A stretch of DNA of 64,000 nucleotides from Candidatus Eisenbacteria bacterium. Lineage in GTDB: Bacteria > Desulfobacterota > Binatia > DP-6. A program made the translations under genes and the position numbers. The notes under the pieces are model-generated. The model was given only the letters and a program-made list of their open reading frames with translations. It was not told the origin of the DNA and ran no database searches. Within the stretch, counting starts at the first letter, position 1. Each line of letters begins with the position of its first letter. The stretch is from the NCBI GenBank assembly GCA_035577985.1, contig DATJZY010000019.1, forward strand, positions 1 to 64,000, written 5' to 3'. Positions 6,159 to 24,157 of this stretch are shown here, piece by piece.

Positions 6159-6484
6159 CCGAGCCAAGACTCCGTCTTGGCTCGGGTGCGAGCGTGTGGC
6201 GTCGGTAGTACGCGCGACCGGCATGTCGCGGCCAGCAAAGCTGGCGCGACAGGCTTGTTACGCCTGCTACGCAGGTCGTCGTGGGCGCGTCCAATCGGCG
6301 AGCGGCTCGCAGCGGTCGGAGTCGCACCCAGCACGAGCCCACACGCGAGCTCTACCCGCGCTGCACCTTCGGGCGCGTACCTCGTGTGTCGCGCCAGCTT
6401 TGCTGGCCGCGACATGCCGGTCGTGCGTACCGGGGACGCTTCACTCTCGCGTTCGCCCCGGCTCAAGAGGGAGTCTTGAGCCGG
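6159..6484. repeat. Palindromic element family A, copy 1
   Basis: A long imperfect palindrome filling the gap between the CoA-transferase and the convergent membrane-protein gene. Left end hairpin: CCGAGCCAAGAC, loop TCC, GTCTTGGCTCGG (6159-6185, 12 bp). Right end hairpin: CCGGCTCAAGA, five-base loop, TCTTGAGCCGG (6458-6484). Between them, 6215-6251 and 6387-6423 form a perfect 37-bp inverted repeat; each arm itself holds a nested hairpin (GCCAGC AAA GCTGGC). The central 6255-6386 stretch is not conserved in the second copy at 16857-17147. No transposase or credible reading frame is inside. Both strands encode short open frames with the same peptide only because the arms are complementary. 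Confidence 0.9.
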
Positions 6485-11144: not shown

Positions 11145-12446
11145 ATGCGCTTCGCACTGCTCGCCGTCCTTCTTCTCACGCCGGTCCTCTCGGGGGCCGA
11201 CGACGCCCTGGCCCCCGGACGCGTGCTCGATCAGACGTCCGCCGCCGCGGCCGAGTCGTTGCTGCCGCCGGAGACGTTCGCGCGCTACAAGGCGGGGGAG
11301 TTCCACAACACGATCGGGGCCTGGCCGCAGGGTGCGCCGTGGGAAGAGGCGTTCGCCGCCGCGTCGCAGAAGAACGCCGAGCGTCTCGGCGTGAGCGAAC
11401 ACGGCACGATCGTCGATCGCGCGTCGGGCAAGCCCGCGAGCGGCCTGTACGGCGTGCCGTTCCGCATCGATCCCGCCGATCCGCAGGCGGGCGTGAAGGT
11501 GATGTGGAACGCGTACTACGCGCTCTGGCGCATCGGCAGCACGCACGACGCGCTCGGCATGTCGTGGGTGGGGCGCAAGGGGCTGCAGCGCGAGGCCGTC
11601 CTCGAGAGCCACATGGCGTTCCTCGAAGGCGTGCCGCCATCGCGCGCGCCCAAGGAGAACCCGCTCGATCTCGCGCAGCAGTCTCGCGCCATCGTGACGT
11701 CGCCGGCGGATCTGAACGGAACGGCGTCGCTCTCGTGGCGCTTCCGCGATCCCGACAAGCAGGACCAGTCGTGGACGTACGTGCCCGCGCTCCGGCGCGT
11801 GCGCCAGGTGTCGCCGGCCAATCGCTCGGACGGATTCCTCGGCTCCGACCTGTCGCAGGACGACGGCGCCGTGTTCGACGGCAAGCCGGAGGACTTCACC
11901 TGGAAGCTCGTCGGCGCGCGCGAGGGGCTGGTGCTCGCCGATCCCGCGAGCCTGGCCGGCAAGGTCGTCCGCAAGGAGCGGCCGGACGGCGGCTTCGACG
12001 ACGAGTGGCCGCCCGATCAAAAGGTGATCGGCTACCAGGACCCGCAATGGGCGGGGCTTCCGTGGGCGCCCGTCACGCCCGTGCTGGTGAGGCGCAAGCT
12101 CTGGGTCATCGAGGCCAAGCCGCACGATCCGTACTACCTGTTCGACCGCATCGAGCTGGCGATCGACCAGGACACGTTCCAGGGCGTCGCCAGCCGCAAG
12201 TTCGACGCGCAGGGCACGCTGCTCCGCAGCCTGCAGTTCCTGGTGGGTGCCCCGCAGCCGATCACGACGGGCGGCGAGACGCTGCTGCTGCCGGCCACAC
12301 AGATGGGCTACCTGCTAGCCGAGAACCTGAAAGCCGACCGCGCAACCGTGGCAGGGACGATGCCGCCCGGCGTCTCGGTGCACTCGCGAAGAGTCCCGAT
12401 CGACCCCGGAATCTTTGCGCTCGAGCGCCTCGGCGCAGGGAAGTAG
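11145..12446 (+). CDS. DUF1329 periplasmic/outer-membrane-associated protein
   Basis: A 433-residue protein with a short signal peptide (MRFALLAVLLLTPVLSGA). The mature part carries DUF1329 hallmarks: a repeated beta-rich LolA-like fold, the DQSWTYVPALRRVRQVSPANRSDGF segment (key YVPALRRVR) and RRKLWVIEAKPHDPYYLFDR. DUF1329 genes are often found with MMPL-type exporters and BamB-like lipid-handling genes, suggesting outer-membrane lipid or hydrophobic compound handling; here the nearest MMPL gene is at 25301. The stop at 12446 is followed three bases later by palindrome B1. Confidence 0.88.
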   Translation: MRFALLAVLLLTPVLSGADDALAPGRVLDQTSAAAAESLLPPETFARYKAGEFHNTIGAWPQGAPWEEAFAAASQKNAERLGVSEHGTIVDRASGKPASGLYGVPFRIDPADPQAGVKVMWNAYYALWRIGSTHDALGMSWVGRKGLQREAVLESHMAFLEGVPPSRAPKENPLDLAQQSRAIVTSPADLNGTASLSWRFRDPDKQDQSWTYVPALRRVRQVSPANRSDGFLGSDLSQDDGAVFDGKPEDFTWKLVGAREGLVLADPASLAGKVVRKERPDGGFDDEWPPDQKVIGYQDPQWAGLPWAPVTPVLVRRKLWVIEAKPHDPYYLFDRIELAIDQDTFQGVASRKFDAQGTLLRSLQFLVGAPQPITTGGETLLLPATQMGYLLAENLKADRATVAGTMPPGVSVHSRRVPIDPGIFALERLGAGK

Positions 12447-12449
12447 TCC

Positions 12450-12583
12450 CCGACGGGAGGCGCCGGGGGCCAGGCGGAGGCGCCTGCGAAGCGGCGCGAC
12501 GAAACGTGGGCCCGTGACGTGGCGCGTGTTTTGTCGCGCGGCGGAGCCGAAGCCGAAGCCTGGCCCCCGGCGCCTCCCGTCGG
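12450..12583. repeat. Palindromic element family B, copy 1
   Basis: Lies between two convergent genes. The outer arms (12450-12475 and 12558-12583) are perfect 26-base reverse complements. Inside, 12473-12500 (28 bases) and 12525-12554 (30 bases) are exact reverse-complement matches to 24113-24140 and 24061-24090 in copy 2, so the two copies are in opposite orientation. The central 24 bases differ. The outer arms of copy 2 have a different sequence but also pair perfectly. No protein-coding content is credible. Confidence 0.9.
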
Positions 12584-12608
12584 CGCACTCCTGCGGCGGC
12601 GAGCCGCT

Positions 12609-13445
12609 CTAGCGCAGCTTCCAGCGGGGCTTGCGCTTTTCGCGGAAGGCGGCGAGCCCTTCGGCGGCGTCTTCGGTCATGAAGATCTTCGACGAGAGGT
12701 CGGATTCGATCTTGTAGTGCTCGGCGAGCGTGGTGCGGAGGCCGAGCTGGACCGAGCGCTTGATCGCCTGGACGGCCAGGGGGCCGCAGGAGCAGATGTC
12801 GTCGGCGAGGGCGCGCGCCGTGTCCATCAGCGTGGCCGGCGGGACGACCTGGCTCACGAGGCCGCAGCGGAGGGCCTCGTCGGCCTTCATGAGGCGGCCG
12901 GTGATGAGGAGCTCCATCGCGCGGGAGAACGGGATCTGCCGCACGAGGTTCGCGGTCGAGCCGCCGCCGGGAAAGAGGCCCCACTTCGGCTCGAAGATGC
13001 CGAAGCTCGCGTTCTCGGACGCGACACGGATGTCGGTGTTCTGCAGCATCTCGAGGCCGCCGGCGGTGCAGAAGCCGTTCACCGCGCCGATGATCGGCTT
13101 CCACAGGTCCACGTTGCGCAGCACCGCGAACGTCGTCGCGTTCGGGGGAAGATCCGACGGATCGACGTCCGGGCCCCAGTCGAATTGCACCTCGCCGCGG
13201 CGGATCTGCTCGGTCTTGCCGACGGTCTGCGAGATGAACTGCTTCAGGTCGCCGCCCGAGCAGAAGGCTTTGTCGCCGGCGCCCGTGAGGATCGCGACCC
13301 AGACGTCGGCGTCGTCGCGCAGCCGCATCCACGCCCGGCACAGGCCGGCCAGGACCGGCATGTTCATCGCGTTGCGCGCCTCGGGACGGTTGATCGTCAC
13401 CGTCATCACGTGGTCGCGGACGTCGACGAGCAGCTCGTGCGCCAC
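12609..13445 (-). CDS. Enoyl-CoA hydratase/isomerase family protein
   Basis: A 278-residue crotonase-fold protein. Oxyanion-hole segments are visible: FCSGGDLKQF (first) and NGFCTAGGLEMLQNTDIRVAS (second), followed by FGIFEPKWGLFPGGGS with the position where hydratases carry catalytic glutamates. The longer-than-usual insert after GGDLKQF (residues about 70-105) is typical of a subset acting on larger acyl-CoAs. Reaction could be hydration, isomerisation or hydrolysis of an acyl-CoA. It is four bases downstream of the flavin reductase gene on the same strand. Confidence 0.92.
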   Translation of the reverse strand: MAHELLVDVRDHVMTVTINRPEARNAMNMPVLAGLCRAWMRLRDDADVWVAILTGAGDKAFCSGGDLKQFISQTVGKTEQIRRGEVQFDWGPDVDPSDLPPNATTFAVLRNVDLWKPIIGAVNGFCTAGGLEMLQNTDIRVASENASFGIFEPKWGLFPGGGSTANLVRQIPFSRAMELLITGRLMKADEALRCGLVSQVVPPATLMDTARALADDICSCGPLAVQAIKRSVQLGLRTTLAEHYKIESDLSSKIFMTEDAAEGLAAFREKRKPRWKLR

Positions 13446-13449
13446 TGAA

Positions 13450-13926
13450 TCAGGCCTCGACGAGGCGGCGGTATCTGCCCTGGAAGAAGAGGAGCGGATC
13501 GCCCCCGTTCACCTGGACGTGCTCGACGTGTCCGATGTGGATCACGTGGTCGCCGCTGTCGTGGGTCGCCGTGATGCGACATTCGATCGTCGCGAGCGCC
13601 CCGGCGATGAGCGGCGCACCGTGATGTCCCGGCGCCGTGGCGACGCCCGTGAACTTGTCGCCACCCGACTTCGCGAAGCGGTTCGACAGGTCCTCCTGCT
13701 CGCGCGTCAGGATGTTCACGGTGAAGACCTTCGAGTCGTAGAAGTGCGCGAAGCTCTCCGCCTTGCGGTCGACGCACACGAGACAGAGGGGGGGATCGAG
13801 CGACAGCGACGTGAACGCGTTGGCGGTGAGCCCGTACGGGGTGCCGTCCGCGCCGCGCGTCGTGACGATGGTGACGCCGGTCGCAAAATGGCCCATGACG
13901 CGGCGGAGGTCCTTCGGATCGAGCAT
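13450..13926 (-). CDS. Flavin reductase-like FMN-binding protein
   Basis: A 158-residue protein of the flavin reductase-like domain family (HpaC/NTA-B type). The N-terminal GHFATGVTIVTTRGADGTPYG and the SLDPPLCLVCVDRKAESF region are the flavin-binding core, with HIGHVEHVQVNGGDPLLFFQGRYR at the end as in two-component monooxygenase reductases. It would supply reduced FMN to a separate oxygenase. The LLM protein (9916) and the flavoenzyme at 60656 are possible partners in this window, but no partner is adjacent. Confidence 0.92.
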   Translation of the reverse strand: MLDPKDLRRVMGHFATGVTIVTTRGADGTPYGLTANAFTSLSLDPPLCLVCVDRKAESFAHFYDSKVFTVNILTREQEDLSNRFAKSGGDKFTGVATAPGHHGAPLIAGALATIECRITATHDSGDHVIHIGHVEHVQVNGGDPLLFFQGRYRRLVEA

Positions 13927-13977
13927 GGCCCGTCCGCGTACTGTGCGGGCGGGCGTGCTGTCAACGCAGGGGCGCGG

Positions 13978-14544
13978 TCAGGTGCGCGGCTGCGCGGCGC
14001 GCTTGCGGAGCCCGCGCGCCGCCGCCGTGAACGTCTCGCGCGTCGCTTGCGCCAGCGCCGCGAGCGAGAGCCCCTTGCCTTCCTTCACCAGGTAGCTCGA
14101 GTGGACGAGGCAGCGCTTGCCGTCGGGCGAACCCTCGAGCTGGTAGTTGCCGTCGTTGTACGTGAGATCGCTCTGCAGCGTGCGAAAATCGACCTTCCTC
14201 TTGTCGCGATCGAAGGTCCACTCGACCTTGGCGCTCGACTGGCGGCCGATCACGCGCTGCGCGATCTGCACCGTCTTCGACGTCGGCGACTGCTCGATCA
14301 GCGAGACGCTGTCGACGCCCGGAATGAAGTCGGGATAGTGCTCGATGTCGGTGAGCGCGTCGAAGACGGGCTGGCACGGCAGATCGAGCAGCGACCAGTA
14401 CTCGAGGAGCGCGCCGCCGGCCTGCTCGGTCTGGCTCTCCCGGTAGAGCAGGTTCTCCGGTGCGCTCCAGTCGACGGTGCGGCCGCCACAGCCGCCGAAC
14501 GCGAACCCCACGAGGACGAACGCCATAGCCGGCATGGACCGCAT
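13978..14544 (-). CDS. SRPBCC/START-like lipoprotein
   Basis: A 188-residue protein with a lipoprotein signal (MAFVLVGFAFGGCGG; the Cys in GGC is the expected lipidated residue) and a START/polyketide-cyclase-like fold: FDALTDIEHYPDFIPGVDSVSL is the diagnostic N-terminal helix-strand unit. Such folds bind hydrophobic ligands in a deep pocket. Membrane-anchored lipid or hydrophobe binding on the outer leaflet is a reasonable inference. It shares strand with its neighbours but is separated by 72 bases from the SDR upstream. Confidence 0.8.
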   Translation of the reverse strand: MRSMPAMAFVLVGFAFGGCGGRTVDWSAPENLLYRESQTEQAGGALLEYWSLLDLPCQPVFDALTDIEHYPDFIPGVDSVSLIEQSPTSKTVQIAQRVIGRQSSAKVEWTFDRDKRKVDFRTLQSDLTYNDGNYQLEGSPDGKRCLVHSSYLVKEGKGLSLAALAQATRETFTAAARGLRKRAAQPRT

Positions 14545-14616
14545 GGTCCCCCCTCTCGCGAGCGATCGGTCTCTTCGCGACCGCCGCTAGCACCGCGGGC
14601 GCGCCGGCGTCAATCG

Positions 14617-15441
14617 TCAGCGGCGGCGCGGGGGCCCGAGCGTCCACGCGCCGTCGGCTGGATCGCGGTACCAGCCGCCCGCGGCGTGCGTGCCGCCGTC
14701 GACGTGCAGCGTGACCCCGGTCACGTAGCGCGCAAGGTCCGACGCGAGGAACACCGCCGCACCGGCGATGTCGTCGGGCTCCGCCGCGCGGCCGAGCGGC
14801 ACCGTCCAACGAAATCGCTCGCGATCGCCCTCGGGGATCATCGCGCGCAGCCCCTCCGTCATGCACACGTCGGGCGCGATCGCGTTCACGCGGATGCCGT
14901 GCGGGCCGAGCTCGACCGCCGTCGTCTGCGTGAAGTTGACGACGCCCGCCTTGGCGGCGGCATAGGGAGCGTAGCCCGGCGCGGCGCGGACGCCCTCGAT
15001 CGAGACGATGTTGATGATGCTGCCGCCGAGCCCGCCGTCCGCCATGCGGCGCGCGACGGCCTGCGTGCAGGAGAAGACGCTCCGGAGGTTCGCGCGCAGG
15101 AGCGCGTCCCATCCCTTCTCCTTGCTCTCGAGAAACGGCGCGGCGAACGTGCCGCCGGCGTTGTTGACCAGCACGTCGAGACGGCCGGTGCGCTCGGCCG
15201 TCGTCGCGACGGCCCGCTCGACGGCCTCGCCGTCCCGCACGTCGGTCGGGATCGGGAGCGCCTCGCCACCCGCGGCGCGAATCTCGTCGGCCGTCCGGGC
15301 GCAGGTCGCCGGGTCGATCTCGAGCAGCGCCACGCGGGCGCCGAAGCGCGCGAGCGCGAGCGCGATCCCCTTGCCGATGCCGGCGCCGGCGCCGGTCACG
15401 ATCGCCGTGCGGCAGGTGAGGAGCGCGTCCTGCGGCGTCAC
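14617..15441 (-). CDS. Classical SDR oxidoreductase
   Basis: A 274-residue classical short-chain dehydrogenase: TAIVTGAGAGIGKGIALAL cofactor loop, LVNNAGGTF, and the YAPYAAAKAGVVNF active-site segment with YxxxK. The Asp-rich LLEIDPATC after beta-2 suggests NAD(H) preference. The protein ends with a short extra tail (RDPADGAWTLGPPRRR) beyond the usual HVDGGTHAAGG end. Seven bases separate it from the PPOX-like gene upstream. Confidence 0.93.
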   Translation of the reverse strand: MTPQDALLTCRTAIVTGAGAGIGKGIALALARFGARVALLEIDPATCARTADEIRAAGGEALPIPTDVRDGEAVERAVATTAERTGRLDVLVNNAGGTFAAPFLESKEKGWDALLRANLRSVFSCTQAVARRMADGGLGGSIINIVSIEGVRAAPGYAPYAAAKAGVVNFTQTTAVELGPHGIRVNAIAPDVCMTEGLRAMIPEGDRERFRWTVPLGRAAEPDDIAGAAVFLASDLARYVTGVTLHVDGGTHAAGGWYRDPADGAWTLGPPRRR

Positions 15442-15448
15442 GTCGCCG

Positions 15449-15895
15449 TCACTGGGGCGTATAGCAGACGACCACGCGGTCGCCCGATTTGAACCCGTCG
15501 CGGAAGCTCTGCTCGAACCCCTTCCAGCGCTCGGGGTACTTCTTCGCGTAGTCGTCCATGATCCGGGTCTCGAGCGCCGGATCCTTCACGAGCGCGCCGG
15601 TCGCCTGGAAGCTCGGACCGTCGGGCTTCCCCACGGCGATGCGGGCCTTCGTGCGCTTCCAGCCGATGCGTCGCACGCGCCACGAGGTCGGGCGGGTGGC
15701 GACGTACACCTTGCCGTCCTCGAAGTGGAACCAGATCTCCGCCGGCTTGCTCCACTCTCCGGTCTTGCGCTCGCTCTGCACGTAGACGTACGGCGCCTCG
15801 CGCAACGCCTTGTCCAGCTCGGGGGTGAGGGCGGCGGACGCCGCGGTCGCGGCCACCAGCACGAGACCGATCGCGAAGACGGTGGGGCGCCGCAT
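15449..15895 (-). CDS. Exported pyridoxamine-phosphate-oxidase-like protein
   Basis: A 148-residue precursor: signal peptide MRRPTVFAIGLVLVAATAASA, then a split-barrel PPOX-like domain (YVYVQSERKTGEWSKPAEIWFHFEDGKVY with the later RRIGWKRTKARIAVG). Cytoplasmic PPOX relatives bind FMN or F420 or heme; a secreted form is less common, so cofactor use is uncertain. Export through Sec would argue against a folded flavin before transport. The start ATG at 15895 was chosen to give a clean signal peptide. Confidence 0.75.
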   Translation of the reverse strand: MRRPTVFAIGLVLVAATAASAALTPELDKALREAPYVYVQSERKTGEWSKPAEIWFHFEDGKVYVATRPTSWRVRRIGWKRTKARIAVGKPDGPSFQATGALVKDPALETRIMDDYAKKYPERWKGFEQSFRDGFKSGDRVVVCYTPQ

Positions 15896-16001
15896 GGGGC
15901 GTCCATACTGCCGGCCCCCCGGGGGATCAAGCGCACGGAGTGTACTTGACCGCGAAACGAAACGCGGGCACGTGGGAGCTTCACAACTCACGGGAGGTCC
16001 C

Positions 16002-16856
16002 ATGATCCGATCCGCGCGACTCGCGACTGCTGCTTGCGTCCTCGTCCTGGCCGGTGCCCGGCTGGCGGGCGCCGACAGCGGCGAGGACCAGTTGATCAAG
16101 TACTACCGCAAGAAGAACAACGTCCCGCCGGCGGCCAAGGTCGCGGTCGAGGGCGTGAAGGACTCCACGAACATCAAGGGCGCCAAGGAAGGGACGCTCG
16201 TCATCGGTGAGGGCGCGGCGGCGCAGCGCAGGACGTTCGTCGCGTCGAGCGATCTCAAGTGGGTGGTGTTCGGCGATGTCGTCGACACGAGCGTCGACCC
16301 GGCCAAGGCCGTCATGGCGAAGATTTCGGTCAAGGACGAGCCCTTCTCGGGCGCGAAGGACGCGAAGGTCGTCATCGTCGAGTACTCGGACTTCCAGTGC
16401 CCGTTCTGCAAGCGCGGGTACGACACCATCGAGCAGCAGGTGCTGAAGGAGTACGGCGGGAAGGTGAAGTTCTACTTCAAGAGCTTCCCGTTGAGCTTCC
16501 ACCCCTGGGCCGAGCCGGCGGCGATCGCGGCCGAGTGCGCCAAGATGCAGAAGCCGGACGCGTACTGGAAGCTCTATCACTCCTTCTTCGACAACCAGCA
16601 GACCGTGAACCCGCAGAACGTGAAGGAGAAGGCACAGGAGTACCTGAAGGACAGTGGGATCGACATGGCGAAGTGGAACGACTGCTACGACAACAAGAAG
16701 AGCCTCGACCGCGTGAAGGCGCAGCAGGCCGAGGGCTCGGGCCTCGGCGTCACCGGCACGCCGGCCTTCTTCATCAACGGGCGCATGCTGGTCGGCGCCC
16801 AGCCGTACGAGAAGTTCAAGGACGTCATCGACGACGAGCTCGCATCGTCCAAATAG
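16002..16856 (+). CDS. DsbA-like thioredoxin-fold disulfide oxidoreductase
   Basis: A 284-residue precursor with signal peptide (MIRSARLATAACVLVLAGARLAGA) and an N-terminal extension of about 90 residues with a small beta domain, similar to the N-terminal part of DsbC/DsbG-type or bacterial DsbA-fused proteins. The thioredoxin domain begins at VVIVEYSDFQCPFCKRG, with the redox pair Cys133-Pro-Phe-Cys136, and contains the cis-proline strand GVTGTPAFFINGR. It likely makes or exchanges disulfides in periplasmic proteins; the Cys-rich secreted proteins at 49373-51114 are possible clients. A CGGGAGG ribosome-binding site precedes the ATG. Palindrome A2 starts one base after the stop. Confidence 0.92.
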   Translation: MIRSARLATAACVLVLAGARLAGADSGEDQLIKYYRKKNNVPPAAKVAVEGVKDSTNIKGAKEGTLVIGEGAAAQRRTFVASSDLKWVVFGDVVDTSVDPAKAVMAKISVKDEPFSGAKDAKVVIVEYSDFQCPFCKRGYDTIEQQVLKEYGGKVKFYFKSFPLSFHPWAEPAAIAAECAKMQKPDAYWKLYHSFFDNQQTVNPQNVKEKAQEYLKDSGIDMAKWNDCYDNKKSLDRVKAQQAEGSGLGVTGTPAFFINGRMLVGAQPYEKFKDVIDDELASSK

Positions 16857-17147
16857 CCGACCCAAGACTGCGTCTTGGGTCGGAGAGAACCGAGAGTGTA
16901 GCGTCGGTGGCACGCGCGACCGGTCTGTCGCGGCCAGCAAAGCTGGCGCGACAGGCTGGGTACGCGCGCGGTGCAGGCGTTCGCGACCTGGTCGCGGCCG
17001 CGTTGTGACCCTTCGTCGGCTGGTCGCGGCTCCGGGTGCGTTCCTCGTATGTCGCGCCAGCTTTGCTGGCCGCGACATGCCGGTCGCGCGTGCCACGGAG
17101 GCGACGCTCTCGCGCGCTCCCCGAGCCAAGACGAAGTCTTGGCTCGG
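16857..17147. repeat. Palindromic element family A, copy 2
   Basis: Same architecture as copy 1. End hairpins are CCGACCCAAGAC/GTCTTGGGTCGG (16857-16883, loop TGC) and CCGAGCCAAGAC/GTCTTGGCTCGG (17121-17147, loop GAA), each with a perfect 12-bp stem. Arms 16907-16953 and 17050-17096 pair over 47 bases with two mismatches. Compared with copy 1, one arm position pair changes from T-A to C-G on both sides (TACG/CGTA versus CACG/CGTG), which keeps the pairing. The centre (about 96 bases) is unrelated to copy 1. It lies between the convergent dsbA-like and glycosyltransferase genes and abuts both stop codons. Confidence 0.9.
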
Positions 17148-17149
17148 AG

Positions 17150-18202
17150 TTACGCCGTGCCGACGATGACGTGGTGACGGCTGTCGGCGCGATGCAGCGC
17201 CGCGTGCACGCTCGCGAGCTCGGCGCGGGCGAGCGGCTCCGCCGTGAGGCTGGAGAGGCTCGGCAGGCGGATCGGCCAGGTGACGTCGAGCAGCAGGTGC
17301 TCGCGATCGCACAGGAAGCGGCCGTAGTGGAGCAGCGCTTCGTCCACCTTGCCCGCGCGCTGGCACGCCTCGGCCAGGACGAGGCGAACGTCGATCCAGT
17401 CCGGCCGCAGCGCGAGCGCGGTCCGGCACGCGTTCGCGGCGCCGCTGACGTCGCCGGCCGCGAGCCGGGCACGCGAGAGCGTCTCGATCGCGAGCAGCCC
17501 GGTCATGGTCGAGCGGGTGCGCCGGAGCGCCGCTTCGGCGTGGGCGGCCGCGGCGTACGCGTCGCCCTGGGCGAACAGGGTCGCGGCCAGCCGCTGGCGC
17601 AGCTCGGCGTCGGAGGGCGCCTCGGCGACGGCGCGCTCGAGGAGGATGCGATTGCGCTCGAGGCGCCTCGTGCGCGACGCCGCCGTCGCATAGCCGTGGT
17701 GACGGATCGGGAGCGCGGCGTATTCCGTCGCCGCCGCCGTCACCCGCTCGTGGATCGGACGCTGCCAGCGGTGCCCGGGGGCGCGGCGGAACAGACGCAC
17801 GGCGAAGTGGATCGACTCGATGTCGCCGGTCGTGCCGATCTCCTCGATGGGCAGGCGCAACGCCGGCGCGCCGGCCTCCGATGCCGTGCTGCGGAGCCCC
17901 TCGGCCGCGTCGATCGAGAGCACCTCGTCCGCATCGAGCGACAGGATCCACGTGCCGCGCGCCTCCGCGAGGGCCACGTTTCGCGCGGCTGCGAAGTCGT
18001 CCTGCCACGGCGCATGGACGACGCGTGCGCCGTGCGCGAGAGCGATTGCGGGCGTGTCGTCGCTCGATCCGGTATCGACGACGATGACCTCGTCGGCGAC
18101 CGGTGCGGCGCTCGCGAGACACGCGCCCAGCGCCTGGGCCTCGTCGCGGGCGATCACGCACACGCTGACGCGAACCCCACGGCGCGGGACGGCCCGCGTC
18201 AT
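17150..18202 (-). CDS. Family 2 glycosyltransferase with C-terminal TPR
   Basis: A 350-residue protein: GT-A glycosyltransferase family 2 domain at residues about 10-210 (SVCVIARDEAQALGACLAS; EVIVVDTGSSDDTPAIA; DADEVLSID as the DxD-type metal motif in LSLDADEVL), followed by an all-helical TPR region. Such GT2-TPR proteins are cytoplasmic or membrane-associated and often glycosylate cell-surface molecules. ATG at 18202 is preferred because upstream codons lie in the divergent promoter region with the GH116-like gene. Its stop overlaps the border of palindrome A2. Confidence 0.88.
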   Translation of the reverse strand: MTRAVPRRGVRVSVCVIARDEAQALGACLASAAPVADEVIVVDTGSSDDTPAIALAHGARVVHAPWQDDFAAARNVALAEARGTWILSLDADEVLSIDAAEGLRSTASEAGAPALRLPIEEIGTTGDIESIHFAVRLFRRAPGHRWQRPIHERVTAAATEYAALPIRHHGYATAASRTRRLERNRILLERAVAEAPSDAELRQRLAATLFAQGDAYAAAAHAEAALRRTRSTMTGLLAIETLSRARLAAGDVSGAANACRTALALRPDWIDVRLVLAEACQRAGKVDEALLHYGRFLCDREHLLLDVTWPIRLPSLSSLTAEPLARAELASVHAALHRADSRHHVIVGTA

Positions 18203-18350
18203 GCCAATGACACCGTGACGACCCTCCGGCACGATCGCCTGGGTTTCCAGCACGACGGTACGGCGGCCCCGCCTTTCCGATGCCATCAAATGCAATGGCC
18301 ATGCCGGTGAACGTTTGACCCGGTCGGCGAGGCTCGGATAGCGACTCGGC

Positions 18351-20894
18351 ATGCCGCTGCGGGCGGGCTTCGATCCCTCGACCGGGACCTACATCGATGC
18401 GCGCGCGACCCGCGGCTTTCCGATGGGCGGCATCGGCGCCGGTGGCTTCACCCTGGCGACGGACGGCGGGTTCGGCGAGTTCCGGTGGAACAACAACTGG
18501 ATGTGCCCGATCCGGAACGTGCGCGGCGCGTTCCACGCGCTCTTCGTGGCGCAGCAGGATCGCCGCCGGATGGTGATGCTGCGCCGCGCGCGCGAGGACG
18601 AGTACGCCGGCGTCGAGCCCGTGCGCTCGACGATCTTCGCGGGCATGCCGCCGGCCTTCGCGCTCGCCTTCGAAGACGAGCTGCCGGTCGAGGTCGCGCT
18701 CGAGGGATTCACGCCGCACGTGCCGCACGACGTGCGCGACTCGACCCTTCCGGCGGCCGTCTTCCGCTTCCGGATCGAGAGCCGCTCCGACGCGCCATGC
18801 GACGTCGCCGTCCTGTTCGCGCTCGAGAACCTGCTCGGACGCGGCGGCACGGGGCACCTGGGCGTCGAGCTCGGCCCCGCGCAGGAGCTGACCGGCGTGC
18901 GCGCCCGCATCGTCTACGACGGCGTCGCGGGCGACTTCCAGGAAGCGGCGGCGGTGGGCGTGCGTCGGGGCGTCCGCTTCCGCACGACGCAGCGGTGGGA
19001 CGCGCGCGCACACCGCGCCGGCGTCGTCGGCGAATACCTCCTCCTGGCCGAGCCGGCGCCGGGTCTCGAGATCACGGTCTGCGACGGGTTCGATGCCGGC
19101 GGCGCGCGGCCGTTCGTGCTCGACGACTTCGCGCGCGACGGTCGCATCGAGTCTCGCCAGTCGGGGCGCCTCGGCGACGACGAGGGCCATCGCCCCGCCG
19201 CCGCCGTCGCGGCGCGCACCCGGCTCGCCGGACGCGCCGTCGCGGAGATCGTGTTCGTGCTCGCCTGGTGGACGCCCGATCACGTGACCGAGCCCGCGCT
19301 GGCCGTGCGTGGCACCGACGGCCCACACGACGGCACGCGCGTCGGGCACGTCTACGAATGCCACTTCGCGTCCGTCGACGCCGTCGCGGCACACGTCCTC
19401 GACCACCGCCGTCAGCTCGAGCACGGTTCGACCGAGGTGACGGCGCTGCTCGAAGCCTCGACGCTCCCGCACTGGCTCGTGCGGGCGCTCGGAAGCTCGA
19501 TCGACTCGACGCTCTGCAACACGATCGTGCCCGCGAGCGGTCGGATGTACACGCTCGAAGGGCTCGACTGGCACTGGCCGATGGGTGGCCTCACCGGCAC
19601 CAATGACCAGCGCCTGTCCGCGCACCCGTACACGTCGGTGTTCTTCACCGACCTCGACGTGACCGAGCTCGACGAGTTCCGCCGTCTCGCCGACGCGCGC
19701 GGCGCCATCCCGCACGGTAACGGCAACTGCGACCTCGGCCTCGGCACGACCGACGTGCCGTACGGCTGGCCGATGTTCATCAAGGACTTCCTGCCCGCCA
19801 AGGAATGGACCGATCTCACGATGTCGTTCGTCCTGCAGGCGGGGAAGCTCTGGCGGACGACGGGGGATCGCGACCTGCTCGACCGCTTCTGGCCTGCGAT
19901 GGTGCGCGGCATGGAGTACCTCTCCGGGATCGCGCCGCACGGGGTGCCGGAGGGCGGCACGACGTACGACGTGTGGGACTTCCCGGGCACGTTCGTCTAC
20001 ACGGCCACGCTCTACCTGGCGGCGCTGCGCACGATGCAGGATGCCGCCCGGGCGGCCGATCCCTCGCTCGCCGGCCGCTACGAGGAGCGCTACACGGTCG
20101 CCGCGCGTCGCACCGACACGCTGTGGGACGCACGCGGCTTCTACCGGAGCTGCGAGACGATCGATTCGATCTTCACGGCCGCCCTCGCGGGCGATTGGGC
20201 CGCCCGCTACGCCGGGCTCGATCCCGTCGTCGACCCGTCGCGGGCGGCGAGGCACCTGCGGCATCAGCATCGCGTGCTCGTCGAGGGCGCGGAGCGGGCG
20301 TCGGCGCGCCACCCGGCGCTGCCGTGGTCGGAGGCGACGTTCGACGGCGAGAAGCGCACGCACCGCCTCGCGGCGGGGCTCTCCGAGGGCGAGGAGTTCA
20401 CGTACGTCTGGCAGGTGCTGTCCTACCAGGCGATGGAGCAGGTCTACCTGGGCGAGGTCGCGGCCGGGCTCGAGACGATGCGGCGCTTCTACGAGCGCCT
20501 GTGGGACGACGGCCATGCGTGGAGCGGAGGCCTGCGCGGCAACGGCGAGTCCGTCTACATGACGCACCCGGTGATCTGGGCGGTGACGAACGCGCTCACG
20601 GGCGCGGCGCTCGACGTGCCGGGTCGGGCGCTCCATCTCTCGCCGCGGACCGGAGGCGAGATCGCACACCTCGTGTGCCCGTTCTTCTTCCCCGCGTTCT
20701 GGGCGGTCCTTCACTACCGTCCCGGCGCCGGGCGGATGACGGTGGAGGTCGTGCGCACGTTCGGCGAGCCGGTCGAGATCGATCGCGTCGTCCACCGGCC
20801 GCTCGCGGGCCCGGTGCGCGTGCACGAGCTCGGCCGCACACGCATGACGATCGGAACGAGGTTCACGGTCGCAACCGAGGAGGGATCGACATGA
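18351..20894 (+). CDS. GH116 / GBA2-type beta-glycosidase-like protein
   Basis: An 847-residue protein matching the two-part GH116 layout: an N-terminal beta-sandwich beginning GFPMGGIGAGGFTLATDG, and a C-terminal (alpha/alpha)6 barrel with MYTLEGLDWHWPMGGLTGTND and TTYDVWDFPGTFVYTATLYLAAL. In characterised members the nucleophile Glu and acid/base Asp lie in equivalent segments (the TLEG Glu and YDVWD Asp are candidates; assignment is mine by motif position). No signal peptide, so probably cytoplasmic, as for human GBA2 which cleaves glucosylceramide. Its TGA overlaps the SDR start (ATGA), and it heads a five-gene coupled operon. Confidence 0.83.
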   Translation: MPLRAGFDPSTGTYIDARATRGFPMGGIGAGGFTLATDGGFGEFRWNNNWMCPIRNVRGAFHALFVAQQDRRRMVMLRRAREDEYAGVEPVRSTIFAGMPPAFALAFEDELPVEVALEGFTPHVPHDVRDSTLPAAVFRFRIESRSDAPCDVAVLFALENLLGRGGTGHLGVELGPAQELTGVRARIVYDGVAGDFQEAAAVGVRRGVRFRTTQRWDARAHRAGVVGEYLLLAEPAPGLEITVCDGFDAGGARPFVLDDFARDGRIESRQSGRLGDDEGHRPAAAVAARTRLAGRAVAEIVFVLAWWTPDHVTEPALAVRGTDGPHDGTRVGHVYECHFASVDAVAAHVLDHRRQLEHGSTEVTALLEASTLPHWLVRALGSSIDSTLCNTIVPASGRMYTLEGLDWHWPMGGLTGTNDQRLSAHPYTSVFFTDLDVTELDEFRRLADARGAIPHGNGNCDLGLGTTDVPYGWPMFIKDFLPAKEWTDLTMSFVLQAGKLWRTTGDRDLLDRFWPAMVRGMEYLSGIAPHGVPEGGTTYDVWDFPGTFVYTATLYLAALRTMQDAARAADPSLAGRYEERYTVAARRTDTLWDARGFYRSCETIDSIFTAALAGDWAARYAGLDPVVDPSRAARHLRHQHRVLVEGAERASARHPALPWSEATFDGEKRTHRLAAGLSEGEEFTYVWQVLSYQAMEQVYLGEVAAGLETMRRFYERLWDDGHAWSGGLRGNGESVYMTHPVIWAVTNALTGAALDVPGRALHLSPRTGGEIAHLVCPFFFPAFWAVLHYRPGAGRMTVEVVRTFGEPVEIDRVVHRPLAGPVRVHELGRTRMTIGTRFTVATEEGST

Positions 20895-21763
20895 AGGAGC
20901 TTCGCGACAAGGTGGCGGTCGTGACGGGTGCCGCGAGCGGCATCGGACGCGCGCTCGCGGGGGCGCTCGCCGCCGAGGGCATGCGGGTCGTGCTCGCCGA
21001 CGTGGAGGCGGGTGCGCTCGACGAGGCGGCGCACGAGATCGCGCGCGCCGGCGCGAAGACGATCGCCGTGCGCACCGACGTCTCGGAGAGCGACGACGTC
21101 GAGGCGCTCGCCAAGGCCGCGCAGGCGGCGTTCGGCGGCGTGCACGTCGTCTGCAACAACGCGGGCGTCTCGGTCTCGGGCCTCACGTGGATGCACACGC
21201 TCGCCGACTGGCAGTGGGTGCTGGGGGTGAACCTCTGGGGCGTGATCCACGGCGTGCGCACCTTCGTGCCGATCCTGCTCGCACAGGGTGGCGAGGGGCA
21301 CATCGTCAACACGGCCTCGGTGGCGGGTCTCGTCTGCGCCCCCGGCATGAGCGTCTACAACGTGACCAAGCACGGCGTCGTCGCGCTCTCCGAGACGCTC
21401 CATCACGAGCTGCGCTTGATGGGCACGCAGATCGGCGTCTCGGTCCTGTGCCCGGCGTACGTCGACACGCGCATCATGGATTCGGGCCGCAATCGCCCTG
21501 CGACCCTCGCCGACACGGCGCAGGAGCTTCCGGGACGGGCCCAGCTCGAGCAGATGGCCCGCGATCTGCTCGCCGCGGGCATGCCGCCCGCGAAGGTCGC
21601 CGCGGTCGTCGTGGACGCCATCCGTGCCGACCGCTTCTACGTCCTGTCGCACCCGGAGTGGAAGCAGTTCGTGCGGGCGCGCGTCGACGCCATCCTCGAG
21701 GACCGTAACCCGCCGCAGGCGGCGGTCGAAGCCCTCCTGAACAATCCCGGAGCCCCCCGATGA
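20891..21763 (+). CDS. SDR oxidoreductase
   Basis: A 290-residue classical SDR: KVAVVTGAASGIGRALAGAL loop, VLADVEAG (Asp after beta-2, so NAD preferred), CNNAGVS and the active-site YNVTKHGVVALSE (YxxxK). It is clearly paralogous to the SDR at 33444-34268 (shared VN/INLWG, YNVTK and GVSVLCP segments). Start ATG overlaps the stop of the glycosidase, and its stop region overlaps the EthD start. It may oxidise the released sugar or aglycone; that is inference from the operon. Confidence 0.93.
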   Translation: MKELRDKVAVVTGAASGIGRALAGALAAEGMRVVLADVEAGALDEAAHEIARAGAKTIAVRTDVSESDDVEALAKAAQAAFGGVHVVCNNAGVSVSGLTWMHTLADWQWVLGVNLWGVIHGVRTFVPILLAQGGEGHIVNTASVAGLVCAPGMSVYNVTKHGVVALSETLHHELRLMGTQIGVSVLCPAYVDTRIMDSGRNRPATLADTAQELPGRAQLEQMARDLLAAGMPPAKVAAVVVDAIRADRFYVLSHPEWKQFVRARVDAILEDRNPPQAAVEALLNNPGAPR

Positions 21764-22128
21764 CGAAGCTCGTGTTCTGCCTGCGGCGGCTCTCGCACCT
21801 CTCGCGCGAGGAGTTCCAGCGCTACTGGTTCGATCGGCACGCACCGCTCGTCCGCTCGCATGCGGCGGCGCTCCGCATCCGGCGCTACGTACAGACGCAC
21901 ACGCTGAGCCATCCGCTGAACGAGGCACTGCAGGCGTCCCGCGGTGGCCCCGAGGCGTTCGACGGCGTGGCCGAGCTGTGGTGGGACGGTCCGGACGACC
22001 TCGCGGCCGCCACGGCCACGCCCGAGGGCCGGGCCGCGGGCGCGGCGCTCCTCGAGGACGAGCGGAAGTTCATCGACCTCGAACGCTCGCCGCTCTTCGT
22101 CGCGACCGAGCGGCCGATCGTCGCGTGA
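21760..22128 (+). CDS. EthD-like ferredoxin-fold protein
   Basis: A 122-residue dimeric alpha/beta-barrel type protein. The N-terminal VFCLRRLSHLSREEFQRYWFDRHAPLVR (key LSREEFQRYW..RHAPLV) is the EthD signature. EthD proteins are small ferredoxin-like folds found with oxidative or aldol-type degradation enzymes; some catalyse cyclisation or decarboxylation, others have unknown roles. The gene is coupled by four-base overlap on both sides, to the SDR and the GHMP kinase. Confidence 0.85.
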   Translation: MTKLVFCLRRLSHLSREEFQRYWFDRHAPLVRSHAAALRIRRYVQTHTLSHPLNEALQASRGGPEAFDGVAELWWDGPDDLAAATATPEGRAAGAALLEDERKFIDLERSPLFVATERPIVA

Positions 22129-23174
22129 GCGAGGAGCTCTTCGTCCCCGGACGGCTCTGCCTCGTCGGCGAGCACGCCGACTGGGCGGGCGCACATCGGG
22201 CGTCGCGCCCGGAAATCGCGCCGGGGTACTGTCTCGTCGCGGGCACCGATCAAGGTCTGCGCGCGGAGGTGTCGCGGTCGGACGCCGTCGAGATCGAGAC
22301 GGTCCTGCCGGACGGCGGCGCACGCGGGCCCGAGCGCACGGCGGCACGCGAGGACGCGCTCGGAGCCGTCGCAGCCGCGGGAGGGTTCTTCAGCTACGCG
22401 GCGGGCGTCGCAGCCGAGATCGTCGGCCGCTACGGCACGGGCGGCGCGCGCATCCGCATCGTCCACGACGACCTGCCGGTGGGGAAGGGGCTGTCGTCAT
22501 CGGCCGCGATCTCGGTCCTGGTCGCCCGCGCCTTCGGGCGGCTCTACGACCTCGGGCTGTCGCTCGGCGACGAGATGCGGCTCGCGTACGCCGGCGAGCG
22601 GCGCACGGGCTCGCAATGCGGGCTCATGGATCAGGTCTGCGCGTACGGACGGCGGGTCACGTTCCTCACCTTCGACGGGCCCGGCTTCGACGTCGAGCCG
22701 CTCGGGGTGGGCGGGCCGCTCCACCTGCTCGTCGTCGATCTCCGGCGCGGCAAGGACACGCGCCGCATCCTCGCCGATCTCAACGCCTGCTTTCCGGACG
22801 CGCCGGGAGCGCTCGCCGCCGGAGTGCGCGAAGCGCTCGGACCCCGCAACGCGCCCCTGGTTGCCGAGGCACGCCAGGCGGTCGCGACCGGCGACGCCCG
22901 CGCCCTGGGCGACGTGATGACGCGCGCGCAGGCCACCTTCGACGCGCTGGTCGCGCCCGCGTGCACGGAGCTGGCGGCGCCGCGGCTGCACGAGGTGCTC
23001 GCCCACCCGGCGGTCCGCGAGCTGGCGTGGGGCGGGAAGGGCGTCGGATCGCAGGGCGACGGCTGCGCACAGCTCGTCGCGCGCGGCGCGGCCGAGCGCG
23101 ACACGCTCGCGTTGCGGCTTGCACGCGAGCTCGACGTCGGCACGCTGCCGCTGACGCTCGGGGAGGCGCGATGA
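22125..23174 (+). CDS. GHMP-family sugar kinase
   Basis: A 349-residue GHMP kinase. Three motifs are clear: GRLCLVGEHADWAGAH (substrate site, in the style of galactokinase GEH-D), the ATP loop PVGKGLSSSAAISVL, and the C-terminal GGKGVGSQGDGCAQLV. It would phosphorylate a sugar hydroxyl, as galactokinase, glucuronokinase or heptose kinase do. Following a glycosidase, a sugar-1-phosphate product is an attractive inference. Start is GTG at 22125 overlapping the EthD stop (GTGA); stop overlaps the GNAT start. Confidence 0.87.
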   Translation: MSEELFVPGRLCLVGEHADWAGAHRASRPEIAPGYCLVAGTDQGLRAEVSRSDAVEIETVLPDGGARGPERTAAREDALGAVAAAGGFFSYAAGVAAEIVGRYGTGGARIRIVHDDLPVGKGLSSSAAISVLVARAFGRLYDLGLSLGDEMRLAYAGERRTGSQCGLMDQVCAYGRRVTFLTFDGPGFDVEPLGVGGPLHLLVVDLRRGKDTRRILADLNACFPDAPGALAAGVREALGPRNAPLVAEARQAVATGDARALGDVMTRAQATFDALVAPACTELAAPRLHEVLAHPAVRELAWGGKGVGSQGDGCAQLVARGAAERDTLALRLARELDVGTLPLTLGEAR

Positions 23175-24028
23175 GCGTCGTCGTTCGCGTCCTCGGTCCG
23201 GACGACGTGCCGGCGCTCGAGTCCTTCCTCCTCGAGCATCGCGACAGCTCGCTCTTCCTGCGTTCGAACCTGCGCACCGCAGGCATCGTCGACCGCGGCG
23301 AGCCGTACCAGGGAACATATGCCGCGGCGTTCGACGGTGATCGCCTGGTCGGGGTCGCGGCGCACTGCTGGAACGACAGCCTCGTCGTGCAGGCGCCCGC
23401 GGCCGTGGCGATCGTGGTCCGCGAGGCGGTGCGCGTGTCGGGACGCCGGATCCGCGGCATCGTCGGCCCGTGGGCGCAGCTCGTGGCGGCGCGGACGGCG
23501 CTCGGGCTCGACGGCGCTGCGACACGCATGTGCTCGCACGACGATCTCTTCGCCCTCGAGCTCGCAGCGCTCGTCGTGCCTGCACCGCTCGCCGAAGGCC
23601 GCGTGCATTGCCGTGCGACCCGCGCCGACGACCTCGACCTCGTCACCCGATGGCGCGTCGGCTACCGCACGGAGCTGATGGGCGGGGTGGACGGCCCCGA
23701 GCTCCGTCGCCTCGCGCGTGACGAGATCGAGCTGCTGCATCGCGCGGGATCGAGCTTCCTGCTCGAGAACGGCGGCGCCCCGGTCGCGTTCTCGGCGTTC
23801 AACGCACGCCTACCCGACGTCGTACAGATCGGGGGCGTATGGACGCCGCCCGCGCTGCGCTCGCGCGGCTACGCCCGCGCCGTCGTCGCCGGCTCGCTCG
23901 TCGCGGCGCGCGCCGAGGGCGTCACGCGCTCCATCCTCTTCACCGGCGAGGACAACCCGGCGGCGCAGCGTGCGTATGTAGCGCTCGGGTACCGCCGGAT
24001 CGGGGACTATGGGCTGATCCTCTTCTGA
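23171..24028 (+). CDS. GNAT-family N-acetyltransferase with duplicated fold
   Basis: A 285-residue protein ending in a clear GNAT domain: VVQIGGVWTPPALRSRGYARAVVAGSL holds the acetyl-CoA loop (RSRGYA), and GEDNPAAQRAYVALGYRRIGDY is the usual C-terminal beta-alpha-beta unit. The N-terminal half (residues about 1-130) looks like a degenerate second GNAT unit. Last gene of the GH116-SDR-EthD-GHMP kinase-GNAT operon; acetylation of an amino sugar is one possible role. The gene is followed by palindrome B2. Confidence 0.87.
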   Translation: MSVVVRVLGPDDVPALESFLLEHRDSSLFLRSNLRTAGIVDRGEPYQGTYAAAFDGDRLVGVAAHCWNDSLVVQAPAAVAIVVREAVRVSGRRIRGIVGPWAQLVAARTALGLDGAATRMCSHDDLFALELAALVVPAPLAEGRVHCRATRADDLDLVTRWRVGYRTELMGGVDGPELRRLARDEIELLHRAGSSFLLENGGAPVAFSAFNARLPDVVQIGGVWTPPALRSRGYARAVVAGSLVAARAEGVTRSILFTGEDNPAAQRAYVALGYRRIGDYGLILF

Positions 24029-24043
24029 GAGTGCTGTCGGGGA

Positions 24044-24157
24044 CGCGAGGTCGGGGGCGAGGCTTCGGCTCCGCCGCGCGACAAAACACGATGCGTCTCG
24101 GCCCGACGCGGCGTCGCGCCGCTTCGCAGGCGCCTCCGCCTCGCCCCCGACCTCGCG
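24044..24157. repeat. Palindromic element family B, copy 2
   Basis: Lies between the convergent GNAT and glycosyltransferase genes. The outer arms 24044-24063 and 24138-24157 are perfect 20-base reverse complements with a sequence unlike the copy 1 outer arms. Inner segments 24061-24090 and 24113-24140 match copy 1 exactly in reverse-complement orientation. The 22-base centre (24091-24112) is not conserved. The remaining 24158-24229 to the next gene is GC-rich and shows a short echo of the inner segment (CGCGACGAAACG) but no gene. Confidence 0.88.

Follow-up and report, generated by a model that had tools for sequence, protein, structure and literature searches.

Two palindromes in the window (the whole 64,000-nucleotide stretch of DNA that was analysed), copy A at 12450-12583 on the plus strand and copy B at 24044-24157 on the minus strand, are members of a newly recognised family of hairpin elements that are located just past gene ends. 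Pattern, BLAST and covariance model searches find about 60 copies dispersed in the 5.7-Mb draft genome that carries the window (denoted G000 below; L numbers denote loci). The exact number is uncertain because several copies fall at the ends of contigs, where repeats would be expected to end up in a draft assembly. The constrained fold of these elements belongs to one strand, on which G.T is tolerated and A.C is not. The explanation that we favor, with about even confidence, is that they are lineage-specific, long, REP-like extragenic palindromes, i.e., small, non-autonomous and probably mobile elements the arms of which are homogenised by template switching combined with selection for the hairpin of one strand.

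Copies A and B and the family they represent

The layout of the two copies and of the adjacent genes in the window is as follows.

12450..12583, plus strand (the element's + orientation): copy A, whole element, between convergent genes
12450..12475, plus strand: 5' outer arm of copy A, CCGACGGGAGGCGCCGGGGGCCAGGC, in perfect 26-bp pairing with 12558-12583
12476..12501, plus strand: 5' core of copy A, GGAGGCGCCTGCGAAGCGGCGCGACG, nearly invariant among the ~60 copies, with GNA internal-loop halves inside
12529..12557, plus strand: 3' core of copy A, TTTTGTCGCGCGGCGGAGCCGAAGCCGAA
12558..12583, plus strand: 3' outer arm of copy A, GCCTGGCCCCCGGCGCCTCCCGTCGG, which pairs with the 5' arm
24044..24157, minus strand: copy B, whole element, inverted relative to copy A, with an outer arm that is exactly the family consensus
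24138..24157, minus strand: 5' outer arm of copy B, CGCGAGGTCGGGGGCGAGGC, in a perfect 20-bp outer stem
24112..24137, minus strand: 5' core of copy B, the same as that of copy A
24064..24086, minus strand: 3' core of copy B, TTTTGTCGCGCGGCGGAGCCGAA
24044..24063, minus strand: 3' outer arm of copy B, GCCTCGCCCCCGACCTCGCG
12609..13445, minus strand: right-side gene of copy A, enoyl-CoA hydratase-like according to its translation, with its stop 25 nt past the 3' arm
11145..12446, plus strand: convergent gene left of copy A, ending 3 nt ahead of the arm
23171..24028, plus strand: host gene of copy B, GNAT-like according to its translation, with its stop ~16 nt from the 3' arm

The preliminary description of these copies as mutually inverted, with identical inner segments and perfectly paired outer stems (26 bp in A, 20 bp in B), is accurate. 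The core halves GGCGCCTGCGAAGCGGCGCGACG and TTTTGTCGCGCGGCGGAGCCGAAGCC are common to A and B and occur at no other place in the window, for which shuffling gives expectations of 0.03 and 0.00 matches, respectively. The 3' core of copy B (24064-24086) lacks one GAAGCC unit that is present in the other aligned copies.

The further assertion that the outer stems are unrelated in sequence does not hold. The 11 bases adjoining the core, GGGGGCCAGGC in A and GGGGGCGAGGC in B, agree at 10 positions, and other copies, e.g., L178 with CGCGAGGTCGCCGGGGGCGAGGT, are intermediates that bridge the A arm and the consensus arm. The arm of copy A, CGGGAGG-CGCCGGGGGCCAGGC, can be derived from the family consensus CGCGAGGTCGGGGGCGAGGC by substitutions and indels that are mirrored between the two arms. 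The reading of the stems as unrelated was accordingly dropped, given that the other copies show the arms of copy A to be homologous to the consensus.

The unit is ~114-135 nt long, typically ~125 nt. In the element's + orientation, which is that of copy A, the consensus is CGCGAGGTCGGGGGCGAGGC GGA GGCGCCTGCGAAGCGGCGCGACGAAATGT..GGGCCGTGACG....TGTTTTGTCGCGCGGCGGAGCCGAAGCCGAA GCCTCGCCCCCGACCTCGCG. Among 60 regions taken around core matches, 49 elements are measurable with both arms; considering both arms together, the stem is 20 bp long in 32 of these, 21 bp in 11, 22 bp in one, 23 bp in three and 24 bp in two. At L163:2917-3049 and L162:2976-3107, the outer arms are strongly replaced and still paired, as in copy A. 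The 65-nt sequence L316:2001-2065 is a derivative without the central ~60 nt, the hairpin of which is still almost perfect. A search with the arm returns mostly arms of the element, plus a few solitary matches, and no Rfam family matches above the gathering score.

The window also contains a second, larger palindrome family, at 6188-6450 and 16891-17112, between convergent genes, with arms of 76-84 nt and the core CCAGCAAAGCTGGCGCGACA, for which there are ~60 matches in the genome. Short hairpins CCAAGACNNNGTCTTGG at 6164-6180, 16862-16878 and 17126-17142 flank these larger palindromes, directly after gene stops. In the relative G002, a palindrome resembling the larger family follows purA (L275), with CCGACCCGAGAC..GTCTCGGGTCGG at the position of the short hairpins.

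Mirrored changes in the arms and the fold of one strand

Across 48 copies, 99.0% of the cells are paired. The number of cells changed on both sides is 87, compared to 13.2 in shuffles (0/500) and at most 19 in slid controls. RNAalifold yields 33 pairs, 16 of which have two-sided changes. All two-sided changes fall within the outer stem; the inner core retains its mismatches and its GNA/GNA-type 3x3 loops, which vary at their central position. Pair counts from one alignment (A4) were not used because the palindromic element let reverse-strand rows in. The stems had been predicted to be complementary and yet unrelated among the copies of the genome. The first part of this prediction is borne out by the fraction of paired cells and the second is not: for most copies of this genome, the outer stem is conserved by descent, the very result named beforehand as the one that would speak against the proposal. 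Thus, the premise of wholly unrelated stems was wrong, and the conclusion that the fold rather than the sequence is kept survives, with pairing that holds over the 48 copies and across four genera.

The changes in the arms are predominantly mirrored. In the 32 ungapped 20-bp stems, 56 mirrored Watson-Crick changes are found versus 10 G.T, 3 A.C and 15 other one-sided or unpaired states; mirrored length changes (21-24 bp) are present in 17 of the 49 copies, and mirrored transversions, blocks and indels are frequent. For example, the close pair L159 and L194 has 3 inner differences, and the stems of the two differ by several mirrored changes, among them an indel, and by none that is one-sided. 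Near-identical inner sequences combined with differing mirrored stems are what template switching from one arm to the other would be expected to leave, and template switching is a documented mechanism for mirrored multi-base changes in hairpins (PMC8794818). The four-gamete test fails in 7 of the 33 informative comparisons, which suggests recurrent mirrored change or recombination. Rebuilding of the palindrome by copying, which the preliminary description offered as an alternative, gains credence from the mirrored multi-base changes and mirrored indels, which far exceed one-sided ones.

The one-sided states reveal a polarity. Counted outward from the core in the 49 copies, they comprise 15 G.T and a single A.C (two-sided binomial probability about 0.0005 if independent, a value that is indicative given that the copies share ancestry). 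The RNA energy of the + strand is lower in 48 of the 49 copies (mean -89 vs -80 kcal/mol), and so is the DNA energy in 47. In the divergent copies described below, there are 12 G.T and 3 A.C states, with four of the G.T located at the stem edge.

These observations bear on the possibility that the elements are inert repeats in which the arms are copied by mutation only, through template-switch correction of a quasipalindrome, without any selection on the fold. Such a process, documented for hairpins as indicated above, would readily produce the mirrored indels and mirrored multi-base blocks. As the complete explanation it appears improbable: in none of the 48 copies have the conserved internal mismatches and the GNA loops been 'corrected', and the excess of G.T over A.C is unexpected from a strand-symmetric process, so that selection seems to be needed besides copying. 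Conversely, stepwise compensatory selection does not readily account for the mirrored indels. Therefore, neither fold selection alone nor arm copying alone suffices.

Gene ends, relatives and mobility

With gene positions taken from a codon-usage gene caller, 52 of 53 calls are intergenic, and the neighboring genes have various housekeeping functions. In 50 of the 57 calls in G000, the element is followed by a gene that is transcribed towards its right side (the 57 include L209, a chance core match), with its stop typically ~5-40 nt away. Convergent genes flank 31 of the G000 copies, and 7 lie between tandem genes with the upstream gene at the element's right. Of the two convergent genes, the right one is nearer in 22 cases and the left one in 6, with two ties (two-sided sign test about 0.004); taken alone, the tandem cases (7 vs 2 in G000) do not reach significance. 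The left gene lies at a widely varying distance, 7-805 nt. Where two elements share an intergenic space, they are always inverted, with the 3' ends outward and each towards its own gene; this outward arrangement is seen in 7 of 7 clear pairs (L161, L191, L198 and L204, and the G004 loci L302, L303 and L305) and in one partial pair (L162). The location of the stop of the right-hand gene beyond the 3' arm, together with the outward pairs, indicates that the folding strand is usually antisense to the accompanied gene.

A covariance model of the G000 copies detects divergent elements in G004, which represents another genus of the same family. With the G004 copies added, a second model yields 14 matches in G004 (one of these on the reverse strand), which represent at least 12 distinct places, as well as two places in G003, a single one in G006 and four additional ones in G000; it detects no element in G001, G002, G005 or the 12 more distant genomes searched. 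Thus, homologs exist outside G000 in at least three further genera of that family (G003, G004 and G006), with arms that are different and still paired: the left arms of the divergent copies have on average 12.5 identities out of 20, with a minimum of 6, and yet pair. The G004 copies are located beside other genes than the G000 copies. Several other candidates were rejected. BLAST matches in 57 relatives are weak DNA matches that are unlike the element once folded and read. Among 85,000 species genomes of GTDB, the 20-mer core occurs a single time in each of 59 contigs, never accompanied by the partner half, and these are hence chance matches. A search of viral contigs and plasmids produced no match.

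The purA locus provides a comparison of occupied and empty sites. In G000, an element lies between purA and its convergent neighbor, a gamma-glutamyltransferase gene (read from its end sequence), whereas the purA-ggt spacer without an element is ~14 nt in G001 and ~36 nt in G009. With empty sites in two relatives, at least this copy looks inserted; the comparison covers one locus, the junctions of which are too diverged for a target-site duplication to be read. A MITE is characterised by such a duplication and by a cognate transposase that has matching terminal repeats; of these elements' relation to MITEs, the data show the empty sites at purA-ggt and the arm matches mentioned above.

The main rival is that the elements function as RNA hairpins at the 3' ends of genes, with a dispersal that would be old or secondary. 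A + strand transcript, originating from the convergent neighbor or from antisense transcription, would fold near the end of the right-hand gene, where it would set RNA 3' ends and exclude antisense transcripts from the gene, or else block 3' exonucleases. The excess of G.T over A.C and the purine-rich GNA/GNA loops on one strand are compatible with such a role, as are an orientation that is similar across genera and the position at gene ends, mostly convergent, a location at which REPs are considered to function as RNA elements (PMC3733652). We regard this possibility as less probable than the preferred one, considering that the strand that folds is opposite to the mRNA of the associated gene, that the left gene lies at no fixed distance, that a U-tract is absent at both ends, and that the purA-ggt pair of the relatives lacks any element. 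The more specific identification as an intrinsic terminator was rejected because flank composition shows no U-tract directly after the hairpin and a terminator scan is at background level.

Under the preferred reading as long, REP-like palindromes, the elements are located shortly after stop codons. What a protein recognises would be the hairpin of the + strand, with the conserved mismatches and GNA/GNA loops, most simply as single-stranded DNA during mobilisation, by analogy with RAYTs, which read REP hairpins. The long outer arms would have no fixed sequence; arm-to-arm template switching would keep them complementary, and purifying selection would remove unpaired, but not G.T, states. The step from a selected hairpin of one strand to single-stranded DNA that is read by a mobiliser is one that we infer, with the RNA role as its main rival. 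A more detailed version, which we put forward tentatively and with well below even confidence, is that of a mobile or once-mobile extragenic element without an IS200-type transposase, present once per gene 3' end in the antisense orientation, with a GNA/GNA hairpin recognised as a single strand, sequence-free arms and ongoing template switching.

Comparison with known systems

Integron attC sites have a folded antisense strand, lie after a stop codon, combine conserved structure with variable sequence, carry RYYYAAC/GTTRRRY core sites and form cassette arrays. The present elements share with attC the folded strand antisense to the preceding gene, the post-stop position (~20 nt past the stop) and the conservation of structure while sequence varies, and the imperfect, strand-polarised hairpin also would fit integron-type sites folded from the bottom strand, one per gene 3' end. 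This reading was nevertheless rejected and has only a minimal chance of being correct: the terminal core sites RYYYAAC/GTTRRRY are missing from the consensus and the flanks, and the copies are dispersed, not arranged in cassette arrays, next to core genes such as purA with its syntenic partner.

ERIC and YPAL-type repeats are imperfect palindromes with an intergenic location and MITE-like dispersal. Compared by description, the present elements resemble these enterobacterial repeats in all these respects as well as in size (ERIC, or RU-1, is 127 bp long and the YPAL-type, or RU-2, 168 bp; PMC2759123). The differences are that, in the present elements, the outer arms are freely replaced yet paired, and the fold is strand-polarised. 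The mirrored multi-base changes that preserve the stems are akin to those in RNA hairpins maintained by template switching (PMC8794818); there, however, the subject is RNA genes, whereas here a dispersed repeat family records the process in tens of copies within one genome.

REPs are defined as extragenic, palindromic stem-loop sequences with a short unit of 14-40 nt and many copies that share a consensus (PMC12306157). The elements described here are extragenic stem-loop palindromes with many copies and a common consensus, and depart from this definition in the length of the unit (~114-135 nt vs 14-40 nt). The GTAG and CGTC superfamilies of REPs are tagged at one end by an unpaired tetranucleotide, GTAG or CGTC, CGTC REPs have stems of 8-9 bp and loops of 4-5 nt, and convergent REPs are mostly located within 20 bp of both ORF ends (PMC3733652). 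By comparison, the outer stem of the present elements is 20-26 bp long and is followed by a long imperfect core. A classical REP/BIME family mobilised by a RAYT would be in line with multi-copy extragenic palindromes near the stops of convergent and tandem genes, as known for GTAG and CGTC REPs (PMC3733652), and is still very unlikely: no Y1_Tnp (PF01797; IS200-type, RAYT transposase) match is found in the draft genome, which is 99.5% complete, by a search that gives matches in 5 of 14 control genomes; the unit is ~125 nt rather than 20-40 nt; the GTAG tag is absent; and CGT precedes the C of the arm in only 21 of 49 copies.

Like REP/BIME and the GTAG/CGTC repeats (PMC3733652, PMC12306157), the elements are dispersed, extragenic and species- or genus-specific, lie near stops, mostly of convergent or tandem genes, and form inverted dimers; CGTC REPs likewise have no dedicated transposase. 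Unlike REP/BIME, they possess a covarying outer stem of 20-26 bp, an imperfect conserved core and a preferred orientation to the gene. Given that the location and dispersal match those of REPs while the length and RAYT do not and the CGTC tag is inconsistent, the family is best described as REP-like, outside the described REP families. Dozens of diverging copies, together with the sister genera, constitute a natural experiment on long perfect stems in which fold selection can be set against arm-to-arm copying. The strand-polarised mismatches and the preferred gene-end orientation suggest that the hairpin of one strand has a specific reader, in a genome in which no RAYT is detected, and the family thus bears on how transposase-less REP families, such as the CGTC REPs, spread.
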